Shown piece after piece: positions 21,733 to 25,550 of a stretch of 35,778 nucleotides of DNA (positions are counted from its first letter, which is position 1; each line of letters begins with the position of its first letter). Origin of the DNA: Leptolyngbya sp. DLM2.Bin15 (lineage in GTDB: Bacteria > Cyanobacteriota > Cyanobacteriia > RECH01); the NCBI GenBank assembly GCA_007694125.1, contig RECH01000291.1, positions 1-35,778 on the forward strand. The letters run 5' to 3'. A program made the position numbers and the translations under genes. The notes beneath the pieces were generated by a model, which had not been told where the DNA came from, searched no databases, and was given only the letters and a program-made list of their open reading frames with translations.

Positions 21733-22221
21733 ATGGATGTATCTCGATCTCAAGTATTGCAAGCTCCCGCCTTGGCGGGTGATTACGTCGCGATCACCTT
21801 TGCGCCGCTGTCCCTAGACGAGGTCTATGCCTTAGCCGATGATGGAGCCAATGGAGCGATCGTGGTGATGAGCGGCATGGTGCGCAATCAAACCGAGGGG
21901 CGTCCGGTGGTGTCTCTGGAATATCAGGCCTATGAGCCGATGGCTATTCGCGTTTTTCAGCAAATCGCTACCGATATTCGCCAGCGGTGGCCCGTCACCC
22001 ATAGTGTCATCCACCATCGCACCGGACGCTTGGCGGTGGGCGATATCAGTGTCTTGGTAGCCGTCGGCAGTCCCCATCGTTCTGAAGCGTTTGCTGCCTG
22101 CCAATATGCGATCGATACGCTCAAACATAATGCTCCTATCTGGAAAAAGGAACATTGGGCCGATGGATCCAGTAGTTGGGTGAGTATTGGTGCCTGTGAG
22201 CAAGTAGACGGAGTATGTTAG
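21733..22221 (+). CDS. moaE: Molybdopterin synthase catalytic subunit MoaE
   Basis: Large subunit of molybdopterin synthase, which with the MoaD thiocarboxylate puts two sulfurs into precursor Z to form molybdopterin. Visible family features are FAPLSLDEVYALADDGANGA, SGMVRN, LEYQAYEPMA, HHRTGRLAVGD, SPHRSEAF and the active-site lysine region IWKKEHWADG near the C-terminus. I chose the ATG at 21733 (MDVSRSQ, 162 residues); the frame also opens at a TTG at 21712. The N-terminal ~20 residues are an extension compared with bacterial homologues. No moaD or other cofactor gene is adjacent. A 7-bp inverted repeat GGATCAC/GTGATCC (22223-22254) follows the stop. Confidence 0.95.
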   Translation: MDVSRSQVLQAPALAGDYVAITFAPLSLDEVYALADDGANGAIVVMSGMVRNQTEGRPVVSLEYQAYEPMAIRVFQQIATDIRQRWPVTHSVIHHRTGRLAVGDISVLVAVGSPHRSEAFAACQYAIDTLKHNAPIWKKEHWADGSSSWVSIGACEQVDGVC

Positions 22222-22352
22222 TGGATCACCTCTCTCTGATCATATCTGTGATCCTAGCCTAGCGTTCATCAAGTAGGAAAGCGATCGCCACCCTGCACAC
22301 TAAGGGATCGCGATCCCTCACCAACCCAGCTCCGTTGAGCATTCATAGATTC

Positions 22353-22784
22353 TTAGGCAGGGTCAGCAGATGGTTTGTCCATCAGCAAACCAACGCCCAC
22401 CAGCGCTGGGATGATCATGACTATTCGCAAGCCTCTAAAAGCTATGAGCTCACTTGAGTTAAGAGCCATCGTCAGAGCAGAGTCTGCCAGCAAAGAATTT
22501 ACGAATCCCTCAATCAGCACAAAGATGAAGCAGCCATAGGTGGCGATCGCTGCCCATCTTGACCAGGTTTTATCTAAGCTAATGCCAACGATTGCTGCAA
22601 TTCCCACCACTGCCATGACACCAGAACGAATGACTTCTACACCAGAGACGTCTGTGTCTTCATACGTGCCCAAAACAGTTGTGATCACCAGCGTGCTCGA
22701 TGTGAAAGCAATGAATGCCAGATAAGCTAGGTTGTACCATTTCGTCGTGCGAGTATAGAGCTTTGGCTGAGAAGAATTTGTCAT
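22353..22784 (-). CDS. Four-helix membrane protein, tandem paralogue 1
   Basis: A 143-residue integral membrane protein with four predicted helices: about 18-40 (LAYLAFIAFTSSTLVITTVLG), 50-68 (VIRSGVMAVVGIAAIVGISL), 74-94 (WAAIATYGCFIFVLIEGFV) and 115-135 (GLRIVMIIPALVGVGLLM). It begins MTNSSQPKLYTRTTKWYNLAYL, nearly identical to the next gene (MTNSSRPRLYTRRTKWYNLAYL). The basic N-terminus before the first helix suggests it faces the cytoplasm. I do not recognise the family. It looks like the product of a local duplication that includes both flanks. Confidence 0.78.
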   Translation of the reverse strand: MTNSSQPKLYTRTTKWYNLAYLAFIAFTSSTLVITTVLGTYEDTDVSGVEVIRSGVMAVVGIAAIVGISLDKTWSRWAAIATYGCFIFVLIEGFVNSLLADSALTMALNSSELIAFRGLRIVMIIPALVGVGLLMDKPSADPA

Positions 22785-22911
22785 AGATGAGCTTAGAATT
22801 AGATGAACTATCTTCGCAACATACCATGAGCGATCGCCCTCTAGATAGTCAGGTCAAGAGCGATCGCCCGACTCCCTTATCAACCCAGTCCCGCTGAGCA
22901 TTCACAGCTCC

Positions 22912-23316
22912 TCAGACCGGGGCAGCAGGTCGTTTCTTCATGAGTGAATTTATGCCTAGAAGCGTGACAGCGAGGATGAGAAGCATCATGATTCTAGAAG
23001 CTTTGAGCCCACCTTCGCCAAGGGTACTAGATAGATCAGGTTGTAGGAAGGAAGACACAAATCCTGCAATGAGGATGAAGCTCAAGAAGCCATAGGCGGC
23101 GATCGCTGCCCACTTTGCCCAAGCTTTATCTAAGATGATGCCAACAATGGCTGCGACTCCCGTCGCGGGTATGATGCTGCCTAAAACAACTCCTGGGATA
23201 GAGGGACTTGGCGTGATGACCACCGTGCTCCATATGAGAGTAATTAATACTAGGTAAGCTAGGTTATACCATTTGGTTCTTCGAGTATAGAGCCTTGGTC
23301 GAGAAGAATTCGTCAT
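22912..23316 (-). CDS. Four-helix membrane protein, tandem paralogue 2
   Basis: A 134-residue paralogue of the neighbouring gene with the same plan: a basic N-terminus (RRTKWYNLAYL), four hydrophobic segments and a short C-terminal tail (KKRPAAPV against DKPSADPA). The best conserved block outside the N-terminus is AAIVGIILDKAWAKWAAIAAYG (AAIVGISLDKTWSRWAAIATYG in the other copy). The loop between helices 1 and 2 is shorter and the loop after helix 3 is unrelated, so the copies have diverged for some time. No function is known to me. Confidence 0.78.
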   Translation of the reverse strand: MTNSSRPRLYTRRTKWYNLAYLVLITLIWSTVVITPSPSIPGVVLGSIIPATGVAAIVGIILDKAWAKWAAIAAYGFLSFILIAGFVSSFLQPDLSSTLGEGGLKASRIMMLLILAVTLLGINSLMKKRPAAPV

Positions 23317-23479
23317 AATTGTTGATCCAGCAAGGTAAGTAGACGCTACGCATTGTGGTGTCTGTTCTATGAATAGCTTATTGTCATGAGTCGAGGAATA
23401 AATGCAACACTTCGCAACATGCCATGGGCGATCGCCCGTTAGCTATTCAGATAAAGAGCGATCGCTTCCCGGTTCTAAC

Positions 23480-23923
23480 CTATTGGGGACGCTCCATGAC
23501 GCTGGTTAATCGTTCAATTGCCTGGGTGAGGCGTTCCTGAGCGACGATGGCAGGATCCGGCGGGGCTTCTGCTGCTTCCACCTCTTCCGCTCGCTTCACG
23601 CGATTTTTCATCGCCGTAAACGATCGCACTACCAAGAACATACAGAAAGCAATGACGATAAAGTTAATAATGGCTGCCAAGAACAGACCATACTGAATAC
23701 CCGCTGCACTTAGATCCGCTAGCTTATCTACGCCCGCCGCCTGCATCGCTGGATTAAGGATAGCAGGCGTCAGAATGTCTGCTACGAGGGAATTAATCAC
23801 ATTGCCGAAGGCACCGCCAATGATCACCGCTACAGCTAGATCGATGACGTTGCCCCGCATGATGAAATCGCGAAAATCTGAGAAAAAGCCACTAGTGGCC
23901 TGTCGTCCGCGCCGAATGCTCAT
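23480..23923 (-). CDS. mscL: Large-conductance mechanosensitive channel MscL
   Basis: Inner-membrane channel that opens under membrane tension to release solutes during hypo-osmotic shock. The 147 residues show the family signature FRDFIMRGNVIDLAVAVIIG with TM1, then NSLVADILTPAI, TM2 (LFLAAIINFIVIAFCMFLVV), the basic cluster KNRVKRAEE and a C-terminal helix bundle (AQERLTQAIERLTSVM). The length is typical. It is a stand-alone gene with an AT-containing 200-bp spacer upstream. Its 3' end abuts the duplicated membrane-gene block. Confidence 0.97.
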   Translation of the reverse strand: MSIRRGRQATSGFFSDFRDFIMRGNVIDLAVAVIIGGAFGNVINSLVADILTPAILNPAMQAAGVDKLADLSAAGIQYGLFLAAIINFIVIAFCMFLVVRSFTAMKNRVKRAEEVEAAEAPPDPAIVAQERLTQAIERLTSVMERPQ

Positions 23924-25450: not shown

Positions 25451-25550
25451 ATCGGCATCCTCGATGCAGCAACGGACGACTCAAGCCCTAAGGGCAACGC
25501 CCCAGTCTATCTCTATTTTGCCTGGCCCTTGCACGAATCACGAGGATTGA

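Follow-up and report, generated by a model that had tools for sequence, protein, structure and literature searches.

Short direct repeats give rise to deletions in bacteria through slipped pairing or annealing, in which one copy of the repeat is kept and the spacer is lost. The locus presented here conforms to this scheme, with one repeat copy kept and the spacer lost, and repeats of at least 8 bp were likewise found at 16 of 69 clean indels between two congeneric genomes. It differs in that the repeat involved, the octamer HIP1 (GCGATCGC), is the commonest octamer repeat of its genome.

According to a passage of PMC6331805, the smtB region of Synechococcus PCC 6301 is where HIP1 was discovered, and a role in promoting rearrangements was suggested for it with reference to Gupta et al. 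1993; the title of that work, as listed in the same paper, refers to a deletion involving HIP1. A section of PMC4390886 mentions evidence for a link between HIP1 and site-specific recombination and none for homologous recombination, and a passage of PMC6604393 cites statistical support for selection keeping the motif. As far as these passages describe it, the deletion of Gupta et al. 1993 resembles the present one in that a HIP1-involving event removes gene sequence, and differs from it in having arisen in one cadmium-tolerant strain, whereas natural species and a whole conserved membrane-protein gene are concerned here. The likeness to the work of Robinson et al. 1997 on E. coli and Synechococcus PCC 7942 lies in a recombination between HIP1 copies independent of a cyanobacterial factor; according to the passage in PMC4390886, cloned sequences were used there, whereas the present case is chromosomal and comparative. 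Deletions at HIP1 are already known, and the probable one described here is a further, base-exact natural example. No paper associating HIP1 with tandem duplication was found in the open-access literature.

We analysed a stretch of 35,778 bp (the window) in which two adjacent paralogous genes are bordered by HIP1, and compared it with its own genome (G000), with two congeners (G001 and G002) and, for the paralogue B, with a total of 145 genomes. The history that we consider quite probable comprises two events, an old tandem duplication and a later HIP1 × HIP1 deletion by the ordinary short-repeat route.

HIP1 and the paralogous pair between moaE and mscL

The window contains 88 copies of HIP1, against 0.93 in shuffled sequences, and the genome 11,648 copies in 5,006,105 bp, where the reversed motif occurs 84 times; the density is 2.3-2.6 per kb across the genome and the samples used below. 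The motif is also well conserved: 1567 of the 1618 copies of G000 lying in sequence aligned with G001 (624 kb) are conserved (96.8%), as compared with 54.1% for all octamers and 49.1% for other palindromes with six G/C in the same alignment. Seven copies, and not three, fall in the 1.2-kb stretch of the pair (Table 1). The three positions highlighted by the sequence-only reading (22281, 22860 and 23458) are confirmed as HIP1; the stretch also comprises three homologous HIP1 pairs (in the genes, inner head and outer head) that are simply present in both units, as expected from the conservation of the motif. The inner head copy lies 30 bp inward of the outer one in both units.

Table 1. Coordinates of the genes, HIP1 copies and spacer around the duplicated pair (positions in the window)
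Feature	Coordinates	Strand	Remarks
moaE	21733..22221	+	Pfam MoaE, 3.1e-41; adjoins the pair on the side of the putative deletion
HIP1 at recombination scar	22281..22288		congeners 482 bp longer here; three-way alignment
Spacer, scar HIP1 to end of tail homology, 25 bp	22289..22313		unmatched in unit B; repeat D3 follows from 22314
Paralogue A, predicted membrane protein, 143 aa	22353..22784	-	ORF; 97% and 94% aa identity with congeners
HIP1 inside gene A	22543..22550		homologous to 23099
Inner HIP1, A head	22830..22837		homologous to 23428; repeat D4; three species
HIP1, middle junction (end of B tail, start of A head)	22860..22867		also in G002; GCGATAGC in G001
Paralogue B, predicted membrane protein, 134 aa	22912..23316	-	49% aa identity with A; 92-95% with congeners
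HIP1 inside gene B	23099..23106		homologous to 22543
Inner HIP1, B head	23428..23435		homologous to 22830; repeat D4; three species
HIP1, start of B head (right border)	23458..23465		in 3/3 species
mscL	23480..23923	-	Pfam MscL, 4.4e-32; adjoins the pair on the other side

From their hydrophobic segments, the products of A and B are predicted to be membrane proteins; they gave only sub-threshold matches, with no Pfam or NCBIfam model above cut-off. Self-comparison of the window resolved the two units into ungapped blocks, 72-86% identical, that take in both flanks as well, which, together with the amino-acid identity given in Table 1, agrees with their earlier description as tandem paralogues sharing an N-terminus and flanks. 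A third, distant paralogue (27% identity) is located on contig C109. Elsewhere, one of the genomes searched (G128) has two near-identical relatives of A/B on two contigs (L020 4182-4622 and L021 4763-5203), both adjoining near-identical ORFs of about 1190 aa, and this segment is perhaps of mobile or plasmid nature.

Age and borders of the tandem duplication

Both copies are present in the two congeners, in the same position next to mscL and moaE, and the duplication is therefore older than the three species. Matches to B at E ≤0.01 were retrieved in 8 of the 145 genomes, the close pair being found only in G000, G001 and G002. A genome of the same family (G003) gave no match to B, a profile search of genome contigs built on the family alignment yielded no confirmed relative, and neither the 145 genomes nor this profile search provided a close single-copy A/B locus. 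A membrane-protein gene lying between mscL and moaE would have been duplicated in tandem before the split of the three species, by a route no longer readable from the sequence.

The sequence-only reading placed HIP1 at all three junctions of the units and explained the duplication by unequal exchange between HIP1 sites, an explanation that we regard as unlikely. Its first part holds for the middle and right junctions. Head homology begins exactly at HIP1 in both units, at 23458 for B and at 22860 for A, and the homology between A and B stops at these two sites without ever crossing them. Moreover, in the congeners the tail of B runs to AGGGA and then reaches the middle HIP1 within a base (GCGATAGC in G001), a 4-bp insertion separating AGGGA from this HIP1 in the window. 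The left junction does not follow this rule. Tail homology between A and B ends at AGGGA, at position 22314 of the window, in all three species, and 25 bp separate this point from the HIP1 at 22281, on the outer side; the bases that follow AGGGA in unit A are TCGCGATCCC in the window, TCGCCACAC in G001 and ATGCCACCC in G002, none of which includes HIP1. A single HIP1 crossover predicts the motif at all three borders, and the left one is devoid of it in three of three species despite the 96.8% conservation between two of them, which makes the loss of a former left-border HIP1 in all three less credible. The closest approach is in G001, where GGGATCGC, one base off HIP1, stands at the left end where the motif would be expected. 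HIP1 shows in addition no excess at indel junctions (see below). We propose that the copied unit started at a HIP1, which would account for the motif at the right and middle borders. A HIP1-driven duplication is not shown by these data, and the duplication itself is ordinary.

When three borders with the same spacing were placed at random, HIP1 occurred at all of them with frequencies of 0.000005, 0.001 and 0.006 for tolerances of 3, 20 and 35 bp respectively, these figures being post hoc and based on the genome-average density while the 1.2-kb stretch is HIP1-rich; the left border meets only the widest tolerance. A truncated third unit to the left of A was also considered and rejected, shuffling giving p values of 0.02-0.06 with HIP1 and of 0.24-1.0 with HIP1 masked.

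Recombination between two HIP1 sites beside moaE

The left HIP1 is clearly the scar of a precise HIP1 × HIP1 recombination. The alignment of the window with G001 and G002 is unbroken through the A/B pair and jumps at 22281-22288, where BLAST and a three-way alignment show that both congeners have 482 bp extra with a HIP1 on each side. The window keeps one HIP1, which joins the sequence to the left of the first site to that on the right of the second site. Accordingly, one of the BLAST pieces ends at query position 1920 and the next starts at 1913, an overlap of exactly 8 bases that corresponds to GCGATCGC, and the bases flanking the two sites in the congeners differ, so that the common stretch is HIP1 alone. 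The allele structures and this exact 8-bp junction are direct observations.

In both congeners the 482-bp segment harbours an intact gene in the same orientation as moaE, whose 113-aa product has the look of a membrane protein and fits no Pfam or NCBIfam family. Of its 113 codons, 22 differ synonymously and 4 non-synonymously between G001 and G002. Relatives of the gene were retrieved in 50 of 140 cyanobacterial genomes and, among named cyanobacteria, in Leptolyngbya, Nodosilinea, Anabaena, Calothrix and Synechocystis, while no match was detected in G000, a genome 99.87% complete.

We infer that the 490-bp event was a loss in the lineage of the window, which we hold to be highly probable. Two HIP1 located 490 bp apart on the moaE side would have recombined or mispaired, through slipped pairing or annealing at the short repeat, with loss of one HIP1, the 482 bp between and the 113-aa gene, a single HIP1 being left at 22281. 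The wide spread of the gene among cyanobacteria favours this direction. The reverse, a gain of the segment by HIP1 recombination in the ancestor of G001 and G002, for example from a HIP1-bearing circle, appears improbable to us, as it calls for a donor molecule that integrates at a site of 8 bp, whereas a loss takes one step. In its favour, the gene does not neighbour moaE at any of 18 other loci with flanks of about 1.5 kb, nor at any of 80 named loci with flanks of up to 3 kb; this placement would thus be specific to the genus among the loci examined, and a gain in G001 and G002 would be possible. Trees of four genes (pyrB, mscL, zds and accA) joined G001 with G002 at 51% when all sites were used, one outgroup branch being anomalously long, and G000 with G001 at 89% when restricted to codon positions 1 and 2, the two trees being in conflict and both weak. 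With the latter topology loss is the simple reading, and with the former gain is accommodated. A gain in G001 and G002 is in any case likewise a HIP1 × HIP1 event. Recombination between HIP1 sites, as invoked by the sequence-only reading, did take place here, at the left HIP1, but later and as a deletion (less likely an insertion), and not as the duplication.

Another length difference was noted at 25514 of the window, where G001 is about 430 bp longer and G002 is unbroken like the window; the repeat at its junction is only 4 bp.

HIP1 at other indels and tandem repeats

The abundance of HIP1 raises the alternative that the motif is so dense that borders hit it by chance, with seven copies in 1.2 kb and the genomic density given above. 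For the duplication borders, chance is a possible explanation. The scar agrees to the base at its two ends and in the joined allele, and random placement yields a repeat of at least 8 bp of any kind in only 0.24% of cases; coincidence as a general account is thus very unlikely.

This null was derived from a comparison of G000 and G001, which were sampled blind to content except for the contig of the window, its G001 counterpart (C289) and the small contig C109. Over 624,118 aligned bp, indels of at least 20 bp were counted and considered clean when the short allele had at most 12 unmatched bases; pieces below 60 bp or 72% identity and chains below 2.5 kb were left out. The 131 indels comprised 62 with more than 12 unmatched bases, which were left out and among which there were no HIP1 repeats, and the 69 clean ones, 16 of them flanked by a direct repeat of at least 8 bp. 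Placing these indels at random predicts 0.17, so repeat-mediated indels are common. Exact HIP1 × HIP1 junctions account for 2 of the 16, versus 3.5 expected when longer repeats are included (p = 0.55), and for 1 of 15 if the focal event, known before the survey, is removed. The second exact case is a 29-bp indel, short in G000 (C340; L169, around 9246) and corresponding to C289:153641-153670 in G001. In a third indel, of 144 bp and short in G001, HIP1 is paired with a sequence that differs from it at one base (L093 6677-6812).

HIP1 represents 21% of the 8-9-bp direct-repeat pairs spaced by 100-600 bp, 15% of those spaced by 20-99 bp, and 42% of the repeat pairs of at least 10 bp at 100-600 bp. 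Per 1000 pairs of 8-9 bp, the yield at 100-600 bp is 0.30 for HIP1 (one event, the focal one) vs 0.31 for other repeats (four events), and at 20-99 bp 2.1 for HIP1 (one event) vs 1.1 for others (three events). These small numbers give no indication of HIP1 recombining beyond what would be predicted from its length and abundance. That HIP1 would be a dedicated recombination site, served by a special enzyme or Chi-like, with the scar as one product, is very improbable: a passage of PMC4390886 mentions that HIP1-like sites undergo site-specific recombination in Synechococcus PCC 7002, but the deletion yield of HIP1 pairs is not above that of other repeats and, by the title of Robinson et al. 1997, E. 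coli and Synechococcus show similar excision. We infer that HIP1 was probably used in the deletion because it is common, and not because it is specially recombinogenic.

An inversion of about 14.6 kb between G000 (C15) and G001 (C175) was also observed (L070 14492-14860, L080 9636-9732). A role of HIP1 in it was considered and rejected, as HIP1 is not at both ends: G000 has a single copy, close to one breakpoint, and G001 has none. Inverted repeats at this place do not exceed about 10 bp.

The sequence-only reading had also suggested counting HIP1 at other tandem duplications of the genome against chance. Self-comparison of samples of 474 kb (G000) and 667 kb (G001) returned many low-identity and overlapping pairs, and the edges of most other tandem repeats in them are without HIP1. 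Three cases were examined closely, too few and too mixed for counting. A recent repeat at the end of contig C17 (L072 12-397; 197-bp unit, 95.8% identical) has HIP1 at the unit start and none at the far end. The recent 155-bp duplication of G000 contig C280 (41581-41889; L131 1981-2289), 98% identical, has edges without HIP1. On C70, copies of 60% identity have HIP1 at the start of both. The C280 place shows besides a 203-bp excess over G001 and is rich in a GTTCCCTGAGCGAAG-type repeat.

The locus provides a natural case, exact to the base, in which a gene was most likely lost between two HIP1 sites, and the survey a yardstick, on about one sixth of a genome, by which HIP1 recombination can be set against a prediction based on abundance, with no excess here. 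Considered alongside the 96.8% of HIP1 copies conserved between two species, these results recast the function of HIP1 as a matter of cost versus benefit. We put forward tentatively, as a possibility with more doubt than support, that HIP1, through its share of the direct-repeat pairs, creates a standing load of HIP1 × HIP1 deletions able to remove whole genes, while the motif is kept at 97% between species. If this is true, cyanobacteria would pay a measurable deletion cost, which would argue for a function of HIP1 that is worth more.
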